Shown piece by piece: positions 136 to 40,202 of a stretch of 40,202 nucleotides of DNA (position 1 is its first letter; the number at the start of each line of letters is the position of its first letter). Source of the DNA: a virus; IMG/VR virus record IMGVR_UViG_3300031784_000072, positions 1-40,202 of that record; one strand, 5' to 3'. Made by a program: the position numbers and the translations under genes. Under the pieces are notes generated by a model, which saw only the letters and a program-made list of their open reading frames with translations, was not told the origin of the DNA and ran no database searches.

Positions 136-506
136 GTCCAAACGACACAAATGCGAACGGTGACCGTCCTGAAAAACCCGGCGACCAGAGAAGACATTCT
201 CAAACAGCGGGAGGACTAAACCCACCCTGCACCAACCCAACCTGACAGCCAGCCGCAAACAAAACCACACTTGCAGACAACAAGTAATATATATGTATGC
301 CCGCTGCGGCCACGGCAGACCCCCGGTCGACGTGTGCGCGTGTGCTTGTCCCCCTCCCCTCCCAAATTGCGGGCGTGCCACGCGGATCACCAACCGGACA
401 CGAACCCAACCGGATCACCCACACGGACACGTCATCGACAACAGAGAGAGCGAGGGACGACACACCAACGTGTGCGCGGGTGTGAGTCGGGAGAGTGTCG
501 CGCCTA

Positions 507-593
507 GTTCTGTCTGTTGTGTGTGTCTGTCCGGTGTGTGTGTGTGTGGTTCTCTCGCGGGTGTGTGTTGGTTGGTGGTCTTCGCGGTTGGCC
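507..593. other. Adenine-free GT-rich tract
   Basis: Eighty-seven consecutive plus-strand bases contain no A, and only one A (594) occurs between 507 and 621. The tract is rich in GT dinucleotides and has a GGTTGGTGG run near 570-579. It sits just upstream of the TTGACA element at 633. It may be single-strand-prone or G-quadruplex-forming DNA; no function can be read from sequence. Confidence 0.6.
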
Positions 594-632
594 AGGTTGG
601 CGGGTGTGTTTGGGTGTCCCGAAAAATAGTCC

Positions 633-662
633 TTGACATCCGAATGATTTTGTGGGCGTAAT
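633..662 (+). promoter_or_regulatory. Sigma-70-like promoter for first early genes
   Basis: TTGACA at 633-638 is followed after 18 bp by CGTAAT (657-662), a 4/6 match to TATAAT. The first early gene starts at 712, behind a purine-rich leader at 689-706. The same CTTGACA context recurs before the genes at 3085 and 7419 (minus), which supports a shared host-type promoter class. Confidence 0.5.
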
Positions 663-711
663 TGTGGGGACGGGAATTCGTCCCGTTCATAGAGAGAGAG
701 GGAGAGCGACG

Positions 712-891
712 ATGAGCGTCGATCTTGATAGTCAGGAAAGGCAAGTGAGCATCGCGCGCCGGTTGATGCGTCTCGCGACGGATGATGCGGGGTTTGTGGC
801 GGCGCGGGGATTGCTTGAGCGTGTGAAGAATGGTGAGCGTGTGTTTCGTGTGTTCGTCGATGGCGATGAGATCAAGTGGGAGGTGTTGTGA
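712..891 (+). CDS. Small early protein, 59 aa, unknown
   Basis: First gene of the rightward early cluster; I do not recognise a family. The protein is soluble, with a helical, charged N-terminal half (a run such as QERQVSIARRLMRLA) and a C-terminal part ending IKWEVL that looks like a beta strand. The ATG at 712 is chosen because it follows the GA-repeat leader at 689-706; an in-frame alternative start upstream at 652 would swallow the leader and the promoter. The stop TGA overlaps the next ATG by one base, so translation is probably coupled. Confidence 0.7.
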   Translation: MSVDLDSQERQVSIARRLMRLATDDAGFVAARGLLERVKNGERVFRVFVDGDEIKWEVL

Positions 892-1025
892 TGCGACGGA
901 AAATCAAGACAACTTTCCCCGCTAATTTTGGTCTTCGGTGTGGTGTCTGTGGTCTCAAGCCCAACATTGACCCGCGCGACGGTTCTGTCCGGTGGTGTGC
1001 TTGTGAGAGGACGGGGGACAAGTGA
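891..1025 (+). CDS. 44-aa zinc-ribbon-like microprotein
   Basis: Short gene lying in a TGATG overlap with the genes on both sides. The product has CGVCG near residue 18-22 and CAC near residue 37-39, giving two Cys pairs about 15 residues apart, a spacing that fits a small zinc ribbon. The N-terminus is basic (MRRKIKTTF). Phage microproteins of this kind often bind host proteins or nucleic acid, but no target can be inferred here. The exact overlap with both neighbours is the main argument that it is a gene. Confidence 0.7.
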   Translation: MRRKIKTTFPANFGLRCGVCGLKPNIDPRDGSVRWCACERTGDK

Positions 1026-1402
1026 TGTCGCTTTTCATTGTGTCGATGTCGCGCGCGGTTGATCCTTTTCCCGTGTCTGTTTTGCATGGCGCGAAGAACG
1101 CCGAAATTTTGCAGGAGAGCGACGGGGGGATCGATGTCCTCGCGTGGCGCGGGGAGAATCCGGCAGAGTTGATTTATGACGCGGTTTCGTTTGCGCGTGA
1201 TTGGGGGAGGGTTCACGGGGACGACGTGTCTGCGTCTCTGCTTGTCCGTGTCGTGACGGAATACGCGAACCGTTGTGGCACTCATCGTGTGAATGAGTGG
1301 GCGCATGTCGGGGACATCATCGACGACGGGGAAGTGATTTTGGGCGTGTCGGATTCGCGCGTGTGGGAGGCTCTCAACGCGTCATCAATCCGGTTCGTGT
1401 GA
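1025..1402 (+). CDS. Early protein, 125 aa, unknown
   Basis: Not recognised. The ATG at 1025 shares its A with the previous stop (TGATG). The product is acidic and soluble, with no membrane segment or Cys pairs. The C-terminal half contains EWAHVGDIIDDGEVILGVSD, which could be a small beta domain. It ends the first translationally coupled group (712-1402). The stop codon lies inside a 13-base sequence that is repeated at the stop of the gene ending at 2045. Confidence 0.75.
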   Translation: MSLFIVSMSRAVDPFPVSVLHGAKNAEILQESDGGIDVLAWRGENPAELIYDAVSFARDWGRVHGDDVSASLLVRVVTEYANRCGTHRVNEWAHVGDIIDDGEVILGVSDSRVWEALNASSIRFV

Positions 1403-1502
1403 GTGGTTGGCCATGCCGGTTGGCGGTTGACGGGGATCGTTCCCCCGCGTGGCACTCTCGCGTCAAGGCGGCGCGGGTCAAACAGAGAGAGAGGGCTCAA
1501 AA
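1399..1502 (+). repeat. Intergenic module, copy 1 (hairpin plus GA leader)
   Basis: From the upstream stop codon this spacer holds GTGAGTGGTTGGC (1399-1411), CCGGTTGG, the 18-mer CGGGGATCGTTCCCCCGC (1431-1448) and then the GA-repeat leader of the next gene (1483-1495). The same ordered parts recur at 2042-2146. The 18-mer can fold with a CGGG(G)/CCCCG stem around ATCGTT. It may be a terminator/antiterminator or an operator; the strand is nominal. Confidence 0.6.
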
Positions 1503-2045
1503 ATGCGGTTGATGGATGCAGAGCGCGAGGCGTATTGGCGCGGGGTTCGCATGGCAGAGAGTGACCGGCTTGTGCCGGACGCGTGGCCACGTGTGTCCCC
1601 GTTGTCCGGTGAGTGGGCGGGCGAGAGTGTCCCCGAATTGTTAGGTGATCTCGTCGCGTCCGTGTTGGGCGGGGAGAACATGGAAAGTGATTGGGATGAG
1701 TGTGATGTCATTGACGCTCTGTCTGATTCTTTTGAGCATGGATATGCTCTCCGGTTCCCCGACATCGTGGCGCACACGTACAGCGTTTGTGTCGATTGCT
1801 ACTACGTTCTGCACAATGGTGTCGATGAGTACGTGAGTGAAAGCGTCGATCAGGATGAAACGCGCGCGCGGCCTGCCGGTTCGTTTGGTTGGGACGTTCA
1901 CGACGTGGCAGACGCGCACGATTACGGGCGTCACGCGGATGCGTCGTTTTCGTGGCGGGCGTGTGAGTGTTGCGGGTCGATGTTGGGCGGGGATCGTTAC
2001 GACGTGAATGTGTGGGATCGTGAGAGCGAGGACATCGACGCGTGA
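1503..2045 (+). CDS. Cys-pair (zinc) early protein, 180 aa
   Basis: Conserved-looking actinophage early protein of unknown role. It has a Cys pair in CVDCYYVLHNG (around residue 97) and a second in CECCGSMLGGDRYDV near the C-terminus, consistent with one zinc site made from two distant knuckles. From memory, proteins with a C-terminal 'CxxC-GSxLGGDR' end are common in mycobacteriophage-type genomes; I could not verify this. The body is strongly acidic. The ATG at 1503 is chosen for its GA-repeat leader at 1483-1495; an upstream in-frame ATG at 1449 lacks one. It is the only gene between the two repeated intergenic modules. Confidence 0.8.
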   Translation: MRLMDAEREAYWRGVRMAESDRLVPDAWPRVSPLSGEWAGESVPELLGDLVASVLGGENMESDWDECDVIDALSDSFEHGYALRFPDIVAHTYSVCVDCYYVLHNGVDEYVSESVDQDETRARPAGSFGWDVHDVADAHDYGRHADASFSWRACECCGSMLGGDRYDVNVWDRESEDIDA

Positions 2046-2146
2046 GTGGTTGGCGGGTGATCCGGTTGGGGATCACGCGGGGATCGTTCCCCCGCACCCG
2101 CGCTACCGTGTCAAGGTGACGCGGTTTTTAGAGAGAGGATCAGAGA
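2042..2146 (+). repeat. Intergenic module, copy 2
   Basis: Second copy of the 1399-1502 arrangement: GTGAGTGGTTGGC (2042-2054) on the upstream stop codon, CCGGTTGG, the 18-mer at 2078-2095 (here with a 6-bp GCGGGG/CCCCGC stem), and the GA-rich leader (2131-2146). Both copies place the parts in the same order over about 100 bases. Confidence 0.6.
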
Positions 2147-2575
2147 GTGAAGACATACGGGGACAATTGGGGCGCGATTGATTCGCGTTACATCGTTCAG
2201 AGTGTGACCGGCGCGGGTAACCATTTCTTCGCGCCTGACACGATGCGCTTTTTCGCGTCACGTGTCGCGTCATCCGGTTGGCGGGTGCGTTCTGGCGGTT
2301 GGGATCACGTCGACGTGTTGGTGACATCAGAGCGTGACACGTACAGCGATTTCCCCCGCGCGTATACCGTGCGGGTGTTCGTGTTCTCTGATTGTGGGCG
2401 CAAGGTTCGCACGTATGAAGACATCGCCGGTTTTCAGGGCTACGCGACAGGCGCAAGCGCGAACAAGGCAGCGCGACGTGTGGCGCAACGAATCGCGGGC
2501 GGGGCCACGTATCGGGAGATTACCGGACGTGAGAGCGACAGCGACGTGTCGATTCTTGAGAGCGTGAACGCGTGA
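2147..2575 (+). CDS. Conserved phage early protein, 142 aa
   Basis: GTG start directly after the GA-rich leader at 2131-2146. Residues 20-45 (NHFFAPDTMRFFASRVASSGW) resemble a small phage family that I recall as having an 'xFFxxDTMRFFxSR' signature; its function is unknown. The following region is beta-rich (VDVLVTSERD, YTVRVFVFSDCGRKVRTYED), and the C-terminal third is helical and basic (NKAARRVAQRIAGG). No signal peptide or membrane segment. The stop overlaps the next start by four bases (GTGA). Confidence 0.8.
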   Translation: MKTYGDNWGAIDSRYIVQSVTGAGNHFFAPDTMRFFASRVASSGWRVRSGGWDHVDVLVTSERDTYSDFPRAYTVRVFVFSDCGRKVRTYEDIAGFQGYATGASANKAARRVAQRIAGGATYREITGRESDSDVSILESVNA

Positions 2576-2757
2576 CCGGCGCGACGTTACTGTCAGACCT
2601 GGCGGGCGCGTTTGTGTTCGCGGGGATTCTGGCGGGCGCGTGTGCTTTGTGGATTCTGGCGGGCGCGTGTCTGCCAGAGAACCGCGCACGGGCCCGTCGA
2701 TATCGGGCGCGTCGTCGTCGTGAGCTTGAGAACGCCGGTTACCGTTTTCGCCGGTGA
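2572..2757 (+). CDS. Small single-pass membrane protein, 61 aa
   Basis: GTG start overlapping the previous stop (GTGA). Residues 9-34 form one long hydrophobic, glycine/alanine-rich helix, followed by a strongly basic tail (RARARRYRARRRRELENAG). By the positive-inside rule the tail would be cytoplasmic and the N-terminus outside. The role is unknown; small early membrane proteins in phages often affect host division, transport or superinfection, which is only analogy here. Confidence 0.65.
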   Translation: MTGATLLSDLAGAFVFAGILAGACALWILAGACLPENRARARRYRARRRRELENAGYRFRR

Positions 2758-2955
2758 CCCCCCGAAAATGACGCTCTAGGATTCGTTCTAACGGGCGCGG
2801 CGGGGACGGTATGGGCTACGGGTGCGGGCGTTTTGGGCGGGCGGGCGTGATGTCCGTCCGTCCTCGCTTGTCCGGTGCGCGTCACGTGGCACGTGCGGGT
2901 CGATGGCGGGCGCGTCGTCGATGTTTGGGCAAGAAGACGCGCGGCCGGCGAATTA

Positions 2956-3003
2956 GCCCGCGCCCAATACTGCCCGCGCACGCTACTGCCCGCGCGCAAT
3001 ATG
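2956..3003. repeat. Three tandem 16-bp direct repeats
   Basis: Units are GCCCGCGCCCAATACT (2956-2971), GCCCGCGCACGCTACT (2972-2987) and GCCCGCGCGCAATATG (2988-3003). A partial fourth (CGCGCACAATAC, 3033-3044) covers the promoter -10 region. Further copies lie at 5127-5142 and 5164-5179. They look like repeated binding sites of a phage or host regulator. Confidence 0.75.
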
Positions 3004-3012
3004 CGAAATGTC

Positions 3013-3042
3013 TTGACACGTGGCCTACGTGTCGCGCACAAT
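3013..3042 (+). promoter_or_regulatory. Promoter overlapped by repeat element
   Basis: TTGACA at 3013-3018, an 18-bp spacer, and CACAAT at 3037-3042 (4/6). The -10 region lies inside a partial copy of the 16-bp repeat, so a protein bound to the repeats could block or recruit polymerase. It would serve the gene starting at 3085. Confidence 0.5.
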
Positions 3043-3084
3043 ACAAGTAGCCCCAACCGGGGCAGAGAGAAAGAGAGAGAGACA

Positions 3085-3471
3085 ATGAATCAGAACGACG
3101 ATTTGATCGACCGGCGTGTCCGGTTCCGCGATACGTCCGGCAGATGGTATTTGGGGGATGTGATCGCGGAAAATGTTCGCGTGTGGAATGACAACGTGGC
3201 CTATTTGACCAACCGGATTTTGGTGGTCAAGGATGACAGCGGTAATTGTTGGGGTGTGGCAGCGCGACACGTGTTCGTGGTCAATCCCAATTATTACGCG
3301 GATATCGACAATCCGGCGTTGTGCGATCATTGTTGGCATCCGTGCCATTCGGATGATGCGGCCACGGACGGCAACGTGTCTTTGTGCGGGTCTTTGCGCG
3401 GTAACGGTTGCGCGGATCGTGCCGTGTGGCGCGGGGATGCGATTGTGGGCATCGACGGGAAAGAGTGGTGA
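3085..3471 (+). CDS. Zinc-binding-like early protein, 128 aa
   Basis: Unknown function. The N-terminal 80 residues are beta-rich (RVRFRDTSGRWYLGDVIAE, then RILVVKDDSGNCWGVAARHV), suggesting a small barrel. A Cys/His-rich C-terminal part contains CDHCWHPCH followed by two more Cys (SLCGSLRGNGC), consistent with a zinc site. The ATG at 3085 follows a long GA-repeat leader (3061-3083) and the promoter at 3013. The stop overlaps an alternative ATG of the next gene (TGATG at 3469-3473). Confidence 0.75.
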   Translation: MNQNDDLIDRRVRFRDTSGRWYLGDVIAENVRVWNDNVAYLTNRILVVKDDSGNCWGVAARHVFVVNPNYYADIDNPALCDHCWHPCHSDDAATDGNVSLCGSLRGNGCADRAVWRGDAIVGIDGKEW

Positions 3472-3476
3472 TGGTG

Positions 3477-3668
3477 ATGAACGGCATCCGGTTTTGGATC
3501 ACGGTTGAGTGTGACGTGCAGGACGGCAAATCGTCGGGGCCGTACGTGGTGCAACGGACGTATCCGATTGCGCCAGGAACGGACATCGAATCGTTTCTTC
3601 CGTTGTTTTTGTCGGAATTGCGGGCGCGTGGCCAAGAGCCATATGGCGATGAGATTGGGGGTGAGTGA
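3477..3668 (+). CDS. Tandem paralogue A, 63 aa
   Basis: Unknown protein beginning MNGIRFW. It aligns with the next gene: both have MN-x-IRFW, DGK-x(2)-GPY, a TY, D-[IV]-E-x-FLP-x-FL and L-x-A-x-G in the same order. It is a compact beta-then-helix domain without a signal or membrane segment. The ATG at 3477 is chosen because it matches the paralogue's N-terminus; the ATG at 3471, overlapping the previous stop, would add two residues. Confidence 0.75.
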   Translation: MNGIRFWITVECDVQDGKSSGPYVVQRTYPIAPGTDIESFLPLFLSELRARGQEPYGDEIGGE

Positions 3669-3669
3669 G

Positions 3670-3885
3670 ATGAACAGCATCCGGTTTTGGATGTCCGATC
3701 AGGATGAAGATGGGGCATTGTTGACGTTCGCTGCCGTCGTCGTCGACGGTAAGGCGTGTGGCCCTTACATGACAGAGCTAACGTACCATGTGACGTGGGA
3801 AATTGATGTTGAGACGTTTCTCCCGATGTTTTTGGCAGACCTACAGGCACAAGGGAAACGTTTGCATCTTCGCGAACACGAATGA
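3670..3885 (+). CDS. Tandem paralogue B, 71 aa
   Basis: Starts one base after the stop of its paralogue and shares its whole layout (MNSIRFW; DGKACGPYMTELTY; DVETFLPMFLADLQAQG). It differs by a small acidic insertion after the first strand (SDQDEDGALL) and a basic tail. The pair looks like a local gene duplication kept in one operon; divergence at many positions suggests it is not recent. Function unknown. The tRNA-like element begins six bases after its stop. Confidence 0.75.
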   Translation: MNSIRFWMSDQDEDGALLTFAAVVVDGKACGPYMTELTYHVTWEIDVETFLPMFLADLQAQGKRLHLREHE

Positions 3886-3891
3886 GATGTG

Positions 3892-3937
3892 ACGCGTCCG
3901 TGGTGGCTCTGCCCCGGTTCGATTCCGGGGACGCGTA
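3892..3937 (+). other. 46-nt tRNA-like acceptor/T-arm element
   Basis: ACGCGTC (3892-3898) pairs perfectly with GACGCGT (3930-3936), and the latter directly follows a canonical T arm: CCCGG (3913-3917), TTCGATT (3918-3924), CCGGG (3925-3929). A3937 sits at the discriminator position. Only 14 nt (3899-3912) occupy the place of the D and anticodon arms, so this cannot decode a codon. Alternatives are a deleted tRNA, a tRNA-derived attP remnant (no integrase seen), or a structured leader RNA. ACGCGT is itself palindromic, which weakens the outer-stem argument. Confidence 0.4.
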
Positions 3938-3974
3938 CTGTCGCCAATCGGCGGCCATTACAGAGAGGGAGACA

Positions 3975-4169
3975 ATGAGTAGCACAAGCGGTAACTACGG
4001 CACTTTGTACGGGTGTCATTGGGAACGGCATCCGTTCGGGATCACCGTGTTTGGTTCGGATTCGACGGGTCAATTTCGGATGATCCGGTTCGCGGGGAAT
4101 GGTTCGGATCGGGTGACGGTTCGCGGTTCGGTTCTCGCGTTTCGCCAGAAGATCGGGGTGGCGCGATGA
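3975..4169 (+). CDS. Small early protein, 64 aa, unknown
   Basis: Begins after a GA-rich leader (3960-3973) downstream of the tRNA-like element. The product is soluble and beta-rich, with Gly/Ser/aromatic content (GTLYGCHWERHPFGITVFG). It has no recognised family. An in-frame ATG at 3882 would read through the tRNA-like element and is not preferred. The stop overlaps the next start by four bases (ATGA). Confidence 0.7.
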   Translation: MSSTSGNYGTLYGCHWERHPFGITVFGSDSTGQFRMIRFAGNGSDRVTVRGSVLAFRQKIGVAR

Positions 4170-4387
4170 ACAACCATTTCGCGTATTACAACGTGACCAC
4201 CGTTGTTGATGACGGCTACCTATCCACGACGGTATGTCTCCCTTATCGGAACGATGATGATTGCGCGTATGACGGTGATGATTCGGCCGTTGATATGGCG
4301 ATGGCCTTGTGGCGGGATGAGTACGGGTTTGATCTGTCGCGTGTCCGTTTGCGCGACGTGGTTGTAGATTTGTTAGGGGTTGAGTGA
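4166..4387 (+). CDS. Small acidic early protein, 73 aa
   Basis: The ATG at 4166 overlaps the preceding stop (ATGA). The protein is strongly acidic (a run DDDCAYDGDDSAVD near residues 30-45), with an N-terminal beta part and a C-terminal helix ending RDVVVDLLGVE. Acidic phage microproteins sometimes mimic DNA or act as inhibitors of host factors; that is analogy only. I do not recognise a family. Confidence 0.7.
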   Translation: MNNHFAYYNVTTVVDDGYLSTTVCLPYRNDDDCAYDGDDSAVDMAMALWRDEYGFDLSRVRLRDVVVDLLGVE

Positions 4388-4388
4388 G

Positions 4389-4787
4389 ATGAGAGAACAT
4401 TTGTATGATCGGATCACACCGGAGAACGTTTGTGACCGGATGGCGGCCGTTGGCGATGACACGTGTAGCGTCGAAGACGCTAGCCAGATGACCGTGGTCG
4501 ACGTGTCCGGCATGACAGAGAATGAGATTGATTGGTTGGGATCAATGGGGGTAGTACCGGACGGCCATACGGTTGACCGGTTGCCCGATCTGATTGTCGA
4601 CGCTCTCCGGTATCGGACGTTGGTGGCCACGGCACAAATGCGCGATGACATCACGTGTGCAGCGTGTGAGCTTGCGAACGGAATCCACAAATTGGTGGAT
4701 TGGATGACGGCCGATCTCATCAAATGGGATGTGATGGGCGACCCGCGGCCGCACGTTCTGATTTGTTCGGAATGTTCGGGCGACTAA
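4389..4787 (+). CDS. Early protein with C-terminal Cys pairs, 132 aa
   Basis: Unknown function. The N-terminal half is acidic and helical (LYDRITPENVCDRMAAVGDD). The C-terminal third has CAAC (near residue 93-96) and CSEC close to the end, plausible zinc ligands. The ATG at 4389 follows the previous stop directly; a TTG at 4380 would add three residues and overlap that stop. The 3' end overlaps the next gene by 16 nt. Confidence 0.7.
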   Translation: MREHLYDRITPENVCDRMAAVGDDTCSVEDASQMTVVDVSGMTENEIDWLGSMGVVPDGHTVDRLPDLIVDALRYRTLVATAQMRDDITCAACELANGIHKLVDWMTADLIKWDVMGDPRPHVLICSECSGD

Positions 4788-5056
4788 CGATCCGTGAACG
4801 TCTGTACTTACGTCCGATCATTGGTCGATGGATACCCTGCCCTCCCGAACCGATCCCGGAACGGTGGGTTGTGCTTGTACGTCACCCGGCGATGGGGGTG
4901 TACTGGCGCGACCCGTACGGGCTACGGGACGGATCAACGGTATGGGGGCCGCCAAATAAGGCGTGGCGGTTTGTGTCCGAACCGGTTGCGCGGGAGATGG
5001 TCGAACGTGAATTAGGCGTTCCGGTGGTCTACAGGCATTACCGTCTGCCGGATTGA
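4772..5056 (+). CDS. Last early gene of the rightward cluster, 94 aa
   Basis: Unknown protein, rich in Pro and Trp (PCPPEPIPERWVVLVRHP; VWGPPNKAWRF), which looks like a compact beta domain followed by a short helix (VAREMVERELG). The ATG at 4772 is taken inside the upstream gene because no later in-frame ATG precedes the conserved-looking start LTIRERLYL. It ends nine bases before the bidirectional hairpin at 5065-5099. Confidence 0.65.
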   Translation: MFGRLTIRERLYLRPIIGRWIPCPPEPIPERWVVLVRHPAMGVYWRDPYGLRDGSTVWGPPNKAWRFVSEPVAREMVERELGVPVVYRHYRLPD

Positions 5057-24549: not shown

Positions 24550-25367
24550 CAGGTCTTGATGATATAGATGAACTGGGTTACACCAAGAGCATGGCTATGA
24601 GACTGCGATTCGTTGCCGCTTGTCCCGTTGTGAGTGTGGTTGGCAGATTCCGTGCCGGTCGTCGTATTGTGTGTGTGGGTTGCCCCATCACCACCAGTTG
24701 TTAGGTTGGCGTTCCAGGTGTGACTATGGCCTGCGCTTACGCCACCAGTAGCCGCACCAGAGTTAGACCCGTTCGACTTGTCATACGTGTGCGTGTGGTT
24801 AGTGTTGTCATTCCCGGTGGTAACCGTATAGTTCGCATTGTGCGTGTGGTTAGAACTCGCGTTGCCCGACGTACCGTTATGCGTGTGCGTCGCAGAAGGG
24901 TTACCTGTCGTCGTGTTGTGCGTGTGGGTTTGAGAGGCCACTCCGGTGTAAATCAACGTTGTTGAACGTGTATCCGATGTAGTGCCATAAGGCAAAACAG
25001 TATTCATTGACGGAACATTGAATGTGGTCGAGCCGTTGCCCGCACCATAAGCAGTACCGATAGCACTAAACAATGCCGAATAGGTAGTACGTGAAACAGC
25101 AGACCCGTCGCAAACCAAAAACCCAGCTGCCAACGCGCCGGCATTAGTGCCAGCCCACAACCAAACCGTGCCGGCCGGAGCAAGGTTCGCAACCTTGTAA
25201 TCGAGACTGGTCGTCACCGCCGACCCATTCACCCCAACCTTCGCCTGCAAAGCCTCAATCGCATCATTCGCATCAGCGTGCTGCCCTGAATGAGACGGAC
25301 TGTTCAACGCCGACCCGGAAGTCGGATTAGTCAAAGAATCAAGAGAAGAAGGAAAATTAGTAGCCAC
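24549..25367 (-). CDS. Tail collar-domain fibre with HTH repeats, 272 aa
   Basis: The N-terminal 80 residues are an attachment region (SGQHADANDAIEALQAKVGV), followed by a phage tail collar domain (AGTVWLWAGTNAGALAAGFLVCDGSAVSRTTY ... TFNVPSMNTVLPYG). The C-terminal 110 residues carry about nine H-x-H units (THTHNTTTG, NHTHNGTSG, HSHTW) spaced roughly 10-16 residues apart. In T4 gp12-type fibres such HxH sites bind Fe or Zn and hold a trimer. It ends SHSHALGVTQFIYIIKT. Confidence 0.88.
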   Translation of the reverse strand: MATNFPSSLDSLTNPTSGSALNSPSHSGQHADANDAIEALQAKVGVNGSAVTTSLDYKVANLAPAGTVWLWAGTNAGALAAGFLVCDGSAVSRTTYSALFSAIGTAYGAGNGSTTFNVPSMNTVLPYGTTSDTRSTTLIYTGVASQTHTHNTTTGNPSATHTHNGTSGNASSNHTHNANYTVTTGNDNTNHTHTYDKSNGSNSGAATGGVSAGHSHTWNANLTTGGDGATHTHNTTTGTESANHTHNGTSGNESQSHSHALGVTQFIYIIKT

Positions 25368-29963: not shown

Positions 29964-32900
29964 CTATTCCTCGCTATCCAAATCAACTTCTTGCAGCAAC
30001 AGACGCTCCCACAAACGACCGAAATCAGGATACACCGCCGCCAAACGCTCACCCTCAGCACGCAGAATGTCACGCAAATCGGCGTTCGCGCCAGCCGCCA
30101 ACGTCTTGCCACGTTGTTCCGCAACCTCCAAAGCCTTATCACGAACATTCAGATACTCGCGCGTACCCATCGCCACTTCGTTGTCGTTCATACGTTCATC
30201 AAACGCGGCTTCATACAACACATCCATCTTCGCGTCAAACGCTCGCACATCAATCGGGGCCTTAGCGAAACCCGGATACTGGTCATACAACCGTTCGCGT
30301 TCCTGGCGCAGAATATCCTTCTGTGCGTCGTTCGGGTTAGGGCCGGCCGCGCGAATCAGGCGACGGTAGATCGACGTTCCCATCAACCGTTGCGATTCCT
30401 CAATTTGTTGTTGCGGTGTCAAATTGACACGTACGCCAGTTTCCAGTTGGCGCATATACACCTGGTAATCAAACTTTGATCCGGTCGGCGCAAAATAGCC
30501 AGCGATCTCATCATAAGTTTCAAAGAACTTTTGATTAGCCCGTTCCCAATTACCGAACTCTGTAGATGCGTCAAGTCCACCAGCAATAGATTTCGTTTTA
30601 CCCGCCATGTACAACATGAAATCGTCACCGAAAGTGTCCAAGAATACTTCGACAGCGGTGTCATAATTTTCGTCTTGCAATTGACGGAAATACTTGGAGA
30701 TTTCCGTGGCGTAAATGTCGGTCTTTGACAAGTCAATGGTTTCCCCATCAATCACAATTGTCTTAGTTCTTGCTTCCTCAGACAAAGGTGCTGTCAACTG
30801 GGGGATCGGTCGGGTCGGGCCAACAAACTGACCGAAACCACGCAACAGCATCAAATTACGCGCTTTGCCTACCGCGTCGTCTTGAAGACGTTGCATATCA
30901 GCTTCAGTTGAAAGATCGTATTCGCCAGACGCAGCCAACACTTCCATGACCTGCATCGTCATGTCACCCAAATAACGGTCGTTATCAGGGTCACCAAACG
31001 CTCCTGACCATACTTTTTGCCACCAGGGGGGATCAGGCACAAGGCCGACTTTAGGCGCACCATAAGGTGTCAGTAGCTTACGAATATCATCGTATTGCGG
31101 TTTGTCTTTGAGAATCCATGCGGCCGCAACCTGAGCGTATGGCCCCAAACCTGGCAGAACGTTGAAACCCATGTTCAAACTCTTGGCAGGTGCAACAAAT
31201 TTTACGTCAGGAATATCGAACGCTTCTTCGACACCCTTGCCACCAGCAAACCCGATTCCGGCTCCAGCAATCAAACCAGGCAACCCGAGTGCAATACCTC
31301 CGATAGTGGCTCCGCTGAAAGCGGTCATCAACGACACAGTATTGGAACCGAACGGGTATTGGAAAACGTATTCGCCGGACACCGGGTCGGTGTAGAAGAA
31401 GCCTCGACCGTCACCGTCGATGTCGGCGTTACGCAAACCTTGAACAGACACATAGCCGCGCTTGAACGCTTCCGGATCAGAGGTGAGACGGTTCGTCCAG
31501 TTCCTCATCACTTCAGCCCACGCAGAACCGAACGGTGAAATGATTGCCATAATGTCAGCAAAGTTGGAGCGTTCGGCTGCGTTGTAAAACAGTTCTTTGG
31601 TGGTATCCAAAGCTGCGCCTTTAGCGTAAGCATCCAAATCCGAGAACGTCAGTTTGCCGTTAGACGGTATTGATCCTTGTGCTTTGCCCCACAACTTTTG
31701 TGCGGCTTCTTTATTGCCGACATAACGGAAAAAGAAACGCTTGTTGAAAGTTTCTCCGGCCGCTTTAGCGGCGGCCTGGACGTTTGCTTTGATAATGGCT
31801 GCTTCGCCAGGTGCAAGTTCGTCAGCCAGTTTGCCAATGACGTTGTAATATTCCTGTCGGAATACGGGCGAACGGTTGAGGAACGCTTCACGTTTCGGAT
31901 ACAACTCGCTGAAAAAATAATCGACACCCTGGTCAAATTTTGCGCCAATTTGAGAGGCTCGACCGGCTTCGTCTTTAGCATCAACGAGAATTTGTGCTTT
32001 GTACGTGTCTTTCAGTTTGATATTCGGGTCATCGATTGTGTCGCTAATCAACTTCCAGAAACCTTCTTGGTAGCCCGTGATTTGGCCGGTGTTTGACAAG
32101 TTGATTGCATTACGAATATTCCCGGATTTCGGGTCGGTGAATTTGCCGGTAGCAATAACTTCGCGCAATAGCGGGCTGCCACCTGTAGTCACATCGATTC
32201 GAGGACGAATGTAATTGTCGATATAGCCGCGTGCGTTCGCTTCGTCCAACTGATTTTGTGCGTCTTTGAAAAGGACAGAGCCGACACGCTTCTGACCTGA
32301 CGCGTCAGGAATCGTGCGGTTCTTCCACATATTCTGAAGTTTGTCTACGTGCCTGCGACCTTCAGGAGTGTTACGCATCCAATCAAGAATTTCATCGGTG
32401 GTACTATTGCCAGCAACAAGTTTTGCTACCTCGTCGGTATACAACAACGATATTTCTGCGGCGATCCCCTCAGAATAAGCTTGTCTTCCGTCACCTCGAC
32501 GGACGCGTCGCCACACACCAGTTTTCATTTGGCGTGCGCCAACTCTTACTGGGTCTACCGTTTCACGCAACGAGCCGGACACGGCCTCAGCCATTTCGGT
32601 TTGACCATTACGAATCAAATCTTCTGGGTCGCCTTTGAACGTCATACCCCAAATGTCGCCCTTGAACTTTTTGTGCAACGCGACTTGGATCAATTCAAAC
32701 GGATGGAAAGCACCGGTTTGAATGCCTGGTGCAAACGATTGACGGAGGAACGAGTCGGACATATTGCGGAGTACGTAACCTCCGGTTAGAAGCGTGACAG
32801 GTCGCCAAATCCAGTTTTGCGCCCACAACAAAGCTGTTGCCGGTGCGCGAAGTTCACCCAGTTTTTCAGGGTTGATAAATCCTTGTTTTGTCGTGATCTT

Positions 32901-34655
32901 CTGGATCGGCGAATATCTGGCGGCGATTCGACGTACACGTTGCGCGTCAGGCAGGAAGACTGAGTGCTTCAACATTTCTGATTGCAACCCGGCCGTCATC
33001 ATCGGATGACCAGCCGTCACAATGTTACCAGCATCATCAACCCACGTAAACGTTCCACCCAGGTCAGCGGCACTACCAACATCATCAATAGCACCAAACA
33101 AATCACGGTCCAAGACTTCTTTTTGTCCGAGCAAACCCTTGTGAAGAATGTCGTTTAGTTCATCGCTGACACCAAACTTCGTCATCGCCGCGCGACTAGC
33201 TTCCTCAATTTCAACCGCCACATTACGGATCGAGCCGTCGCCCAACACGAAAGCGTCCGTCAAACGGTTCACCAAATCGAGACGCAACTTGCGGTCAACA
33301 CGTGCCTGGATCAAATAGTTGTTCACGTTCTTGATTGACTGGGCGACCTGACGCGAAGAACCGCCTTCAACAACAACATGACGACCCGGCACAAGATTCA
33401 ACAGGCGTGCCGCTTTAGATTCTTTCATCGTGCCGAAATACGGGATATTGCGTTTGACCTCATCCCAACGACCAATATCGATGTTGTCGATTTTCTTAGG
33501 GCCGACACCGCGAGTGATGTCACCCAAACCGAGAGTGTCGTTCAAAAACTGTCGGGCTTTGACAGCATCGTCAACCTCAACAACACCCTTCCAGAAAGCC
33601 GCGTCAGCAGTCGGGAAAATGCGGATCGCCTCATCAACATTCTTGATATTGACGATACGGTTGATGACGCTTTGACCGCCTTTAGTGTCAAGAAATTCTG
33701 CGACCTTAGACGGAACAATGTAAACCGAATTTTTTTCTGTTAGCCCAGCAAGAGTGCGTAGACCAATTTTCGCACCAACTTCAGTTTTTGCGAGACGTGC
33801 GAGCGCACCACCGCCAGGGAGAGCTGGCGTTTTGATCGCTACAGCAGCGTCAACGATGCCGGAAAGAATGTTGTATTCGCGGGAACCTGGTTGAGCAACC
33901 ATTGTTGCGATAGCACGTCCGGCTGTCAATGCTTTGCCGTCAATAGTTCCGCGCAGTTTGCGGGCTTCCTCAGCCTGCTTTTCGTAGATGCGTGCGTTCG
34001 GGAACCAGCCGTCACCGACAAGTCCAGGGTTTTGGATTGCTTGGCCCAACAAAGTCGCATCCCAGAACGCGTCCTCGAAACTAAAATTGCCTGGGGTGTA
34101 TGCGCTGTTGCCTCCACCGAAAGCGGTCGCAACCTCATATTGGAAGTCGTTAGATGCGGTAGCAGTCGGAATAACAGTTGTGCCGGGGACTCGACCGGTA
34201 GTTGACGCTTCTTGGATTTGGCCTGACACATTGTAAATTGCGCCGACGACAGGAGCAGCAAGGTTTTGTGCGACATCGGAAGTCCATTGAAGACCTGTGC
34301 CACCCCAACGAACAGCCGTTCTCAGAAAATCAAGGCTTGTGCCTTTTGTATACCACGGTTGTTCTTCTTCTTTGACCACGTTGGGGTTTTCTCGAACAAC
34401 CCGGAACACTTCTTGTTTTACAACGTCAGACAAAAAAGACTTTGCTTGTTCCTCGTCCATCGCCCCAGCGGTATATGCACGCGCAGCCGCAATAATCGCA
34501 GCCGGGTTCGCATCAGGTACGGTGTTGTAGAAATCTTTGACAGCGTTAGCCAAATTGAACGACACCGTAGGCTTTGCAGCTTCATACGCTCGCTCGGCAG
34601 CCTCCAACTCTGCGTCAAGACTGTCTTCCTCAGCAGGTGTAAACGGAAACGGCAT
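29964..34655 (-). CDS. Giant putative internal virion / ejection protein, 1563 aa
   Basis: Longest gene of the genome (about 12 per cent). Mostly helical and Ala-rich, with one clear glycine-rich hydrophobic segment (about 1110-1145, ATIGGIALGLPGLIAGAGIG) that could insert in a membrane during DNA ejection. C-terminal helical repeats (LRQERERLYDQYPGF, DILRAEGERLAAVYPDF) resemble each other. No lysozyme or protease motif was recognised. Position before scaffold and capsid, and no tape measure elsewhere, favour an internal core protein of a short-tailed phage over a tail ruler. Starts in a TGATG overlap. Confidence 0.75.
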   Translation of the reverse strand: MPFPFTPAEEDSLDAELEAAERAYEAAKPTVSFNLANAVKDFYNTVPDANPAAIIAAARAYTAGAMDEEQAKSFLSDVVKQEVFRVVRENPNVVKEEEQPWYTKGTSLDFLRTAVRWGGTGLQWTSDVAQNLAAPVVGAIYNVSGQIQEASTTGRVPGTTVIPTATASNDFQYEVATAFGGGNSAYTPGNFSFEDAFWDATLLGQAIQNPGLVGDGWFPNARIYEKQAEEARKLRGTIDGKALTAGRAIATMVAQPGSREYNILSGIVDAAVAIKTPALPGGGALARLAKTEVGAKIGLRTLAGLTEKNSVYIVPSKVAEFLDTKGGQSVINRIVNIKNVDEAIRIFPTADAAFWKGVVEVDDAVKARQFLNDTLGLGDITRGVGPKKIDNIDIGRWDEVKRNIPYFGTMKESKAARLLNLVPGRHVVVEGGSSRQVAQSIKNVNNYLIQARVDRKLRLDLVNRLTDAFVLGDGSIRNVAVEIEEASRAAMTKFGVSDELNDILHKGLLGQKEVLDRDLFGAIDDVGSAADLGGTFTWVDDAGNIVTAGHPMMTAGLQSEMLKHSVFLPDAQRVRRIAARYSPIQKITTKQGFINPEKLGELRAPATALLWAQNWIWRPVTLLTGGYVLRNMSDSFLRQSFAPGIQTGAFHPFELIQVALHKKFKGDIWGMTFKGDPEDLIRNGQTEMAEAVSGSLRETVDPVRVGARQMKTGVWRRVRRGDGRQAYSEGIAAEISLLYTDEVAKLVAGNSTTDEILDWMRNTPEGRRHVDKLQNMWKNRTIPDASGQKRVGSVLFKDAQNQLDEANARGYIDNYIRPRIDVTTGGSPLLREVIATGKFTDPKSGNIRNAINLSNTGQITGYQEGFWKLISDTIDDPNIKLKDTYKAQILVDAKDEAGRASQIGAKFDQGVDYFFSELYPKREAFLNRSPVFRQEYYNVIGKLADELAPGEAAIIKANVQAAAKAAGETFNKRFFFRYVGNKEAAQKLWGKAQGSIPSNGKLTFSDLDAYAKGAALDTTKELFYNAAERSNFADIMAIISPFGSAWAEVMRNWTNRLTSDPEAFKRGYVSVQGLRNADIDGDGRGFFYTDPVSGEYVFQYPFGSNTVSLMTAFSGATIGGIALGLPGLIAGAGIGFAGGKGVEEAFDIPDVKFVAPAKSLNMGFNVLPGLGPYAQVAAAWILKDKPQYDDIRKLLTPYGAPKVGLVPDPPWWQKVWSGAFGDPDNDRYLGDMTMQVMEVLAASGEYDLSTEADMQRLQDDAVGKARNLMLLRGFGQFVGPTRPIPQLTAPLSEEARTKTIVIDGETIDLSKTDIYATEISKYFRQLQDENYDTAVEVFLDTFGDDFMLYMAGKTKSIAGGLDASTEFGNWERANQKFFETYDEIAGYFAPTGSKFDYQVYMRQLETGVRVNLTPQQQIEESQRLMGTSIYRRLIRAAGPNPNDAQKDILRQERERLYDQYPGFAKAPIDVRAFDAKMDVLYEAAFDERMNDNEVAMGTREYLNVRDKALEVAEQRGKTLAAGANADLRDILRAEGERLAAVYPDFGRLWERLLLQEVDLDSEE

Positions 34656-39116: not shown

Positions 39117-39137
39117 ACCACTCCAGTAAAGCACAAA

Positions 39138-39169
39138 CCTCCACCCGGTAGGGGGTTACCAGGTGGAGG
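39138..39169. promoter_or_regulatory. Strong hairpin in terminase leader
   Basis: CCTCCACCCGGTA (39138-39150) pairs with TACCAGGTGGAGG (39157-39169), 13 positions with one mismatch, loop of six bases. It lies between a -10 element (39220-39215, minus) and the terminase ATG (39116). On the minus strand TTTGTGCTTT follows. It could be an attenuator, a 5' stabiliser or a protein-binding site controlling terminase expression. Confidence 0.55.
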
Positions 39170-39214
39170 CGTGCAGGTTGCCGACCAGGAGAGAGAGTAC
39201 CGGCCGACAACCCG

Positions 39215-39317: not shown

Positions 39318-40088
39318 ATGGACGAGCATACCACACCACAGCTCACAGCAGACGCATACTTCGCCATCATCCCCGAGTGGATACTCGACGCACCCATCAG
39401 CCCCACAGCCGTCCGAGCATTCGCCCTACTCCAACGCTACGCCAACAACCACAACACCTGCTGGCCATCACGAACCACCCTTGCCACCCGGATGCGCTGC
39501 TCCACCGACACCGTAGACCGCGCCCTAAAAGAACTCGTCAACATTGACGCACTCACCATCCAACCCCGCACCGCCATCGCCGGCCAACCCCAAACCAACC
39601 TGTACACACTCCACATGGGGGTAGCCGCACAGATGCGGAGGGGTATGGGCATGGATGCGGAGGGGGTAGCCGCACAGATGCGGAACAAACCAAAGAAGAA
39701 GAACCAAAGCCAAGAAGAACTAACTCCATCATCCGAAGATGATGACTTCAACACCTTCTGGGACACCTACCCCCGCAAAGTCGGCAAAGGCGCAGCCCGC
39801 AAAGCCTGGAAAACCGCCCTCAAAAAAACCGATTCCACCACCATCCTCCAAGCCGTCAACCACTACCGAATCACCTGCCCACAAGACCCCACCTACATCG
39901 CCCACCCAACCACCTGGCTCAACGCCGAACGCTGGCTCGACAACACCACCCCCACCCCACCCCCCACCCCCAGCTACACCCCACCCCCACTCTGCGGCAA
40001 CTGCCGAAACGGATGGATCTACATCACCCGCAAAGACGGCACAGAAGCCGTCGCACCCTGCCCCTGCCAAAACCCGCCACCCCTCTGA
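39318..40088 (+). CDS. Replication-initiator-like (lambda O-type) protein, 256 aa
   Basis: The N-terminal winged helix (about 10-100; ISPTAVRAFALLQRYANNHN, WPSRTTLATRMRCSTDTVDR) is typical of phage replication initiators and replisome organisers. A linker (101-145) encoded by the DNA iterons follows, then a C-terminal domain (145-210; FWDTYPRKVGKGAARKAWK ... THPTTWLNAERWLD-like) as in DnaT/primosome-type proteins, and a final Cys-rich part with CGNC and CPC (226-250), a likely zinc site. It would melt the origin and load the host helicase. The ATG at 39318 is used; one at 39288 would add ten residues. The coding strand is A/C-rich, unlike the other rightward genes. Confidence 0.85.
   Translation: MDEHTTPQLTADAYFAIIPEWILDAPISPTAVRAFALLQRYANNHNTCWPSRTTLATRMRCSTDTVDRALKELVNIDALTIQPRTAIAGQPQTNLYTLHMGVAAQMRRGMGMDAEGVAAQMRNKPKKKNQSQEELTPSSEDDDFNTFWDTYPRKVGKGAARKAWKTALKKTDSTTILQAVNHYRITCPQDPTYIAHPTTWLNAERWLDNTTPTPPPTPSYTPPPLCGNCRNGWIYITRKDGTEAVAPCPCQNPPPL
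39617..39684. repeat. Three tandem iterons inside initiator gene (candidate origin)
   Basis: Units at 39617-39639 (23 bp), 39640-39661 (22 bp) and 39662-39684 (23 bp) all begin with GGGG and end GATGCGGA. The outer two are identical and include TAGCCGCACAGATGCGGA, which has a CCGCA/TGCGG dyad. An A-rich stretch follows (39685-39720). This is the plan of lambdoid origins: O-binding iterons within O, next to an easily melted region. Confidence 0.75.
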
Positions 40089-40202
40089 TACAATCAACAC
40101 CACAACCAAACCCACCACACAGACCCCTGCCACTTGCACGGCCAGCGAGGATGACACACGGAAACGTGGGTAGACGATCATGCACCGACATGATCGAGCA
40201 GC
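40068..40202. repeat. Direct terminal repeat, right copy
   Basis: Right copy of the 135-base repeat; differs from the left copy only at 40076. It includes the last seven codons of the initiator gene (to 40088) and the inverted repeat at 40175-40196. After joining the ends, the circular or monomer genome length would be about 40,067 bp. Confidence 0.95.

Follow-up and report, generated by a model that had tools for sequence, protein, structure and literature searches.

The initiator gene and its tandem repeats

The window, that is, the whole 40,202-nt stretch of viral DNA analysed here, carries nearly the same sequence at both ends, positions 1–135 being equal to 40068–40202 with one mismatch. 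Given these near-identical 135-base ends, it very probably represents a complete genome in circular form, about 40,067 bp long. On the circular map, the region downstream of the initiator gene thus resumes at position 136. The initiator gene comprises the following features.

39318..40088, + strand: replication initiator gene, 256 residues (phrog_270, E 4e-41; phrog_391, E 8.5e-11; HTH_36, E 9.5e-11)
39348..39617, + strand: code for the N-terminal winged-helix domain, residues 11–100, presumed to bind the iterons (AlphaFold2 pLDDT mostly >90; Foldseek)
39618..39639, + strand: iteron 1, GGGGTAGCCGCACAGATGCGGA, with the dyad CCGCA (39625–39629)–caga–TGCGG (39634–39638) (repeat search, pattern counts, triple scan)
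39640..39661, + strand: iteron 2, GGGGTATGGGCATGGATGCGGA, in another reading frame; GGGGTAGCCGCACAGATGCGGA or near it in relatives (repeat search, relatives)
39663..39684, + strand: iteron 3, same sequence as iteron 1 (repeat search, pattern counts)
39685..39730, + strand: A-rich segment, presumed to unwind, with ARCCA at 39688, 39702 and 39708 (AT content, GC3, motif profile)
39738..39941, + strand: code for the helical C-terminal domain, residues 141–208, FxxFWxxYPRK...TWLNAERW (AlphaFold2)

The phrog_270 replication initiation protein profile spans residues 11–220 and thus both domains of the initiator, and HTH_36 of Pfam covers residues 27–74; a further match is the O-like profile phrog_391. 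The match to DnaD_N of Pfam fell below its cut-off, RepA_N (PF06970) was absent in the Pfam scan, and neither a PDB sequence search nor a search of Rfam returned a match. Structural comparison by Foldseek placed Rep–DNA or initiator N-terminal domains at ranks 2–4 and 6 (E 0.008–0.016, probability 1.00). Ranks 2–4 correspond to the RepA_N plasmid initiators 5kbj, 4pql and 4pt7 (E about 0.01), alongside many MarR-type and other winged helices, all Foldseek E-values being only about 0.01 and none <0.001. In the AlphaFold2 model, residues 104–139 form a linker predicted to be disordered (pLDDT <50). It is nearly exactly this stretch that the iterons and the A-rich segment encode, in agreement with the original prediction, made from the sequence alone, that the repeats lie in the linker of a winged-helix initiator.

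The C-terminal domain is presumed to contact the helicase or its loader, on the basis of the genes beside homologues of the initiator in cultured phages. There, the neighbouring gene often encodes a DnaB-like helicase or an annotated helicase loader, and the cultured relatives Bolt007, Kovu and Gingerbug have an annotated helicase loader gene beside the initiator gene. Downstream of the initiator gene in the window (293–5056), no helicase loader (P) was recognised. The early region encodes a WhiB-like regulator, a RecE-like exonuclease, an annealing protein, RusA and a DNA methyltransferase. A scan of about 40 ORFs with PHROGs or Pfam recognised none that encodes a DNA polymerase, replicative helicase or primase, as had been predicted, and host enzymes would thus be needed. 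The WhiB-like protein and the Arthrobacter-phage relatives found for this phage support the predicted actinobacterial host, which is probable, though short of proven. The terminase and initiator genes are divergent, and the gap separating them holds a strong 14-pair hairpin with a terminator-like tail on the minus strand (39137–39170). On the structural-gene strand, a 1563-aa ORF between the portal and major capsid genes (29964–34655, minus strand) gave zero matches in Pfam or PHROGs.

The predicted arrangement of three tandem repeats, the outer two identical, was recovered. Positions 39617–39639 and 39662–39684 are identical across 23 nt, the middle copy (39639–39661) is 74% identical, and the spacings are 22 and 23 nt. 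Allowing up to 3 mismatches, the pattern GGGGTANNNGCANNGATGCGGA occurs three times in the whole window, always in the array, against 0.04 expected from shuffles. The array is also the strongest three-copy repeat of the window, scoring 50 of 60 against 40 at the next best place, and shuffling the codons of the gene 2000 times gave at most 43. As a control, the same triple scan was run on lambda O, where it picked out the known iterons with a score of 46 (200 shuffles, maximum 36). Judged by the pattern count and the codon shuffles, chance is excluded as the source of the array. The peptide GVAAQMR, originally described as duplicated by the repeat, is encoded by copies 1 and 3 only, whereas copy 2 lies in another frame and reads RGMGMDAE. 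Within the close group of this phage, iteron 2 is the most degenerate copy, and its palindrome is also weaker. An exact search of viral contigs with the iteron core yielded 20 matches, of which three tandem copies occurred only in initiator genes, the others being single and chance or unrelated occurrences; blastn of the array against annotated phages gave marginal matches only (E 2–6).

Constraint on the linker DNA and recurrence of the layout

The iterons had been expected to persist as DNA while the linker codons vary, and this pattern is seen down to 46% domain identity, with copies in different frames. Six relatives of 77%–78% identity (L003–L008) and two of 57% (L092 and L093) possess three iterons that are again spaced by 22 and 23 nt. 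In these relatives, the middle copy equals or nearly equals GGGGTAGCCGCACAGATGCGGA, and the other frame yields GSRTDAE or GTRTDAE rather than GVAAQMR. A relative 46% identical in the N-terminal domain (L112) has three near-identical copies of GGTAGCCGCACGGATGCGG, spaced by 24 and 23 nt and in a different frame pattern. Counting only codons that encode the same residue in both sequences, the comparison with L092 gave 1 synonymous difference at 25 sites in the linker (residues 99–137) and 44 at 113 sites elsewhere (Fisher p 0.0003). The same trend, though weaker, was found against three closer relatives (p 0.05–0.08), and the regional synonymous profile dips across the iterons and the A-rich segment. 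As judged from these alignments, the nearly frozen synonymous sites and the mixed frames demonstrate that the iterons and the A-rich segment are constrained at the DNA level, which supports the earlier suggestion that a DNA function may constrain the protein linker.

Protein scans of viral contigs, together with cultured phages and plasmids, provided 101 sequences in 34 clusters at 70% identity; a scan of genome contigs for relatives returned only five, all distant. A significant triple directly after the domain was found in 24 of the 34 clusters (best member reported for multi-member clusters; p floor 0.005, from 200 shuffles), with a spacing of 21–25 nt, mostly 22 followed by 23 or 24. These clusters include the cultured Arthrobacter phages Bumble and Kovu, the Microbacterium phage Margaery, and the cultured phage Gingerbug. 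Among the ten clusters lacking a significant triple, several are distant homologues found via the C-terminal domain. Laroye is also counted there since the scanned stretch cut its triple off; the scan of its whole gene gave 52 against a null maximum of 35. All three copies share one frame in none of the 24 clusters, and the three copies occupy three different frames in L010, L017, Margaery, Gingerbug and a Thermaerobacter plasmid. The count of zero rejects a peptide repeat, yet is not unusual alone under random spacing (5.9%). Given the absence of any single-frame triple among the clusters, the duplicated peptide is regarded as a by-product, and the linker peptide would be whatever the DNA site happens to encode.

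The half-sites differ among families (CCGCA, TCAC, GGCCCG, GGTCA, GCCGC, GGAAG, TAGCA and GTATC) and are mostly mirrored. In a set from which L195 dropped out (marker not found) and which did not include L184, the pairs three to seven from the centre are complementary in 0.71–0.94 of the copies. The left and right halves match each other within a copy (0.691) just as they do between copies of the same gene (0.690). Such a lack of copy-specific compensation is compatible with recognition of one and the same half-site by two protein subunits, and argues against hairpins. Setting the recognition-helix residues against the half-sites by eye gave no firm rule.

The Thermaerobacter plasmid just mentioned (Thermaerobacter sp. 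FW80, NZ_CP037896.1; L241) belongs to a member of Bacillota and has its initiator CDS at 1432–2577, upstream of a ParB-family gene. It carries three iterons with GCCGC...GCGGC half-sites, spaced by 23 and 23 nt and lying each in a different frame; its half-site is similar to the one in the window phage. C-terminal homologues with other N-terminal domains (Catfish, Dardanus, Pitbull, MooMoo, Renaud18 and Rousseau) showed no comparable array. The weak triples of Dardanus and Pitbull (p 0.003) are of a different kind, lying all in one frame in Dardanus and early in the gene in Pitbull. One initiator-like CDS (L061, 2389–3312), whose N-terminal part is different, has several copies of (V)QGADTRHPE in its linker; this peptide-level repeat may represent another kind of intragenic array.

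The A-rich segment and the ARCCA motif

The A-rich segment noticed earlier after the repeats abuts iteron 3, the highest-AT 40-nt stretch of the gene starting at 39684. Its AT content is 62% against 40% for the gene, and the GC3 of its codons is 0.38 against 0.75. The corresponding segment is AT-richer than its own gene in 20 of 22 families, and the 16 codons following the iterons have a lower GC3 in 21 of the 22 (p about 1e-6), for instance 0.06 against 0.75 in Laroye and 0.19 against 0.85 in Kovu. On the coding strand, the motif ARCCA occurs 51 times in 17 of the 22 families, compared to 7.3 expected from composition and four on the opposite strand. Its mean per family reaches 1.95 in the first 44 nt past the iterons and is at most 0.36 in any other bin. 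The occurrences start about equally in the three frames (17, 18 and 16), and their spacing peaks at 6, 10 and 14–16 nt.

As the motif was found upon inspection of these same 22 sequences, a hold-out set of 18 sequences was scanned, which is only partly independent since several come from the same clusters; it contained 17 occurrences where 5.5 were expected (maximum 12 in 200), and L009 alone accounted for six. ARCCA as a strand-specific signal following the iterons is thus a strong lead, though not a settled one. Given that families with unrelated iterons have the array in common, it may be read in single-stranded form by a conserved part, for which the C-terminal part of the initiator and the helicase-loading machinery are candidates. 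We tentatively consider, though we would not rely on it, that the origin in this group of phage initiators is a two-part code laid over the linker codons, in which three family-variable dyad iterons are followed by a shared, strand-specific ARCCA array, a phage counterpart of the DnaA-trio or the DnaD recognition element. A fixed array beside diverse iterons would set the part of the origin that confers specificity apart from one for melting or loading that is possibly general.

Short one-strand motifs in melting regions beside double-strand sites are known to be read by initiation proteins, as exemplified by TrfA and RepE on a strand of the DUE, the DnaD recognition element and the DnaA-trio (PMC4081077, PMC10201434). 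ARCCA resembles these elements as a short motif on one strand, but differs in sequence, and its reader protein is putative. For this initiator group, the rule would read: after the winged-helix domain, three sites 21–25 nt apart in mixed frames, then A-rich codons with ARCCA. What appears to be new here is this family-wide, frame-independent layout rule together with the ARCCA segment; a prior description of the layout cannot be excluded, the literature search having covered open-access papers only. Since the same layout recurs with differing site sequences in many related phages, the origin should be predictable from sequence. The cultured phages with this layout (Bumble, Kovu, Laroye, Margaery and Gingerbug) make the rule directly testable.

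A putative intragenic origin and its alternatives

Taken together, the iterons are likely 22-nt, partly palindromic sites for a winged-helix dimer of the initiator encoded by the same gene, and would constitute the phage replication origin together with the A-rich segment. The best reading is an intragenic origin of the lambda or pSK41 style in a probable phage of Actinobacteria. At the level of sequence, the original interpretation is well supported. From the sequence we infer binding, opening, helicase loading and origin use, for which a putative model can be proposed. Initially, initiator dimers would fill the three sites, about two helical turns apart, yielding a nucleoprotein complex. The resulting strain would open the A-rich segment beside iteron 3. 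Afterwards, one strand with its ARCCA motifs would be held open, perhaps by the initiator itself. Finally, the C-terminal domain would recruit the host replicative helicase, either directly or via a small phage loader, and host enzymes would copy the DNA.

This model is reminiscent of the origin of lambda, which is located in the middle of the initiator gene O with iterons followed by an AT-rich tract (PMC7466680). The architecture of lambda O and ori, to which the locus had been likened, is indeed present, with the codes for a binding domain, semi-palindromic iterons, an AT-rich tract and a C-terminal domain in the same order. The lambda iterons are 20, 24 and 23 nt apart, compared to 22 and 23 nt here, and these spacings place the lambda copies in different frames as well. 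However, this phage has three iterons (CCGCA/TGCGG), whereas lambda and its Stx-phage relatives have four to six of another sequence; no P gene was recognised downstream, unlike in lambda; and the two proteins are only distantly related, as indicated by the match to O-like phrog_391.

In the RepA_N initiators of pSK41 and pTZ2162, the winged-helix N-terminal domain binds four Rep boxes in the centre of the rep gene, where the encoded protein sequence is dispensable (PMC5703833), and the iterons of RepA_N plasmids are semi-palindromic (PMC7145576). The N-terminal domain structures of these plasmid proteins are among the best, though weak, fold matches of our initiator. Given their place near the top of the fold comparison, pSK41 appears to parallel this layout as closely as lambda O does, although the present initiator is devoid of PF06970, has a different C-terminal domain and belongs to a phage rather than a plasmid. 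Common to lambda ori, pSK41 and this phage are in-gene iterons, a linker whose sequence hardly matters, and a binding domain and a C-terminal recruitment domain, the latter two presumed in this phage. The mycobacterial prophages Miko and Rachaly encode a RepA-type HTH initiator, and their origin was suggested, by analogy with lambda, to be in or beside repA; that study reported that the regions examined contained no repeated motif, and stopped short of assigning the origin to the gene interior (PMC7157519). The present phage, likewise probably one of Actinobacteria with an HTH initiator, is likened to them by description. Intragenic iteron origins are known from lambdoid phages and staphylococcal plasmids, whereas for RepA-type phages of Actinobacteria only a location had been suggested, with no repeats (PMC7157519).

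Initiators often act both as initiator and as repressor. The iterons might be bound by the initiator mainly as an intragenic operator limiting its synthesis, with replication starting elsewhere. A winged-helix dimer on a dyad site is a typical repressor arrangement, and the Laroye homologue is annotated as 'transcriptional repressor' in one record; but about 300 nt of the gene precede the sites, their surroundings yielded no promoter-like site, and the AT-rich, codon-biased and strand-specific segment that follows in most families is one that an operator would not need, which leaves this explanation improbable. The duplicated peptide and the inverted half-sites permit two further readings. Since one peptide is shared by copies 1 and 3 of this phage, a tandem GVAAQMR might be kept for a function of the linker itself. 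This we consider next to impossible and reject, given the mixed frames, with five genes having one copy per frame, and the frozen synonymous sites; the linker is moreover predicted to be disordered. Perfect short inverted repeats such as CCGCA-caga-TGCGG might instead fold into hairpins, of RNA or of a single strand, within the messenger, where they could, for instance, slow translation or control RNA decay. This reading is very improbable and likewise rejected, since the half-sites lack copy-specific compensation and the folding energy of 39605–39730 is ordinary (z -0.9).

Counting against an origin at the iterons, both the skew minimum and the most AT-rich place of the genome lie in the downstream intergenic region. 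On the circular map, the cumulative GC skew is lowest at 443 and highest at 25,032, with an amplitude that none of 2000 block shuffles reached. Genes appear to switch direction at about 39.2 and 5.1 kb, positions that differ from these turning points. An extreme had been anticipated near 39.6 kb; the minimum falls about 0.85 kb downstream of the iterons (resampling range about -70 to 1000) and thus within about 1 kb of them, but not at the site, with nothing finer resolved. This agrees with an origin at 39.6 kb, though it is no sharp proof of one. The true origin might hence be this intergenic region, from about 40089 round to 292, with the intragenic repeats only loading or storing the initiator. 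Beyond the skew minimum, the highest-AT 40-mer at about 257 and a conserved element with compensatory stem changes favour this explanation. In contrast, no iteron-like sequence was found in the region, the range of the minimum spans about 1 kb, its position is displaced by the C-rich initiator gene, and the core of the element was found in eight viral contigs only, compared to 24 clusters for the intragenic layout. We thus assign an intergenic origin a low probability and prefer the intragenic one.

The 40-mer in question (257–296) is the most AT-rich of the genome, contains AAGTAATATATATGTATG and is located between the conserved element and the first early ORF, near the skew minimum. The element itself (59–190, also 40126–40202) lies downstream of the initiator and consists of the core GGATGACACACGGAAACGTGGGTAGAC followed by a hairpin with changes in both sides of the stem in L091 and L252. 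It has no match in Rfam and is possibly an undescribed phage RNA or a packaging or replication element.
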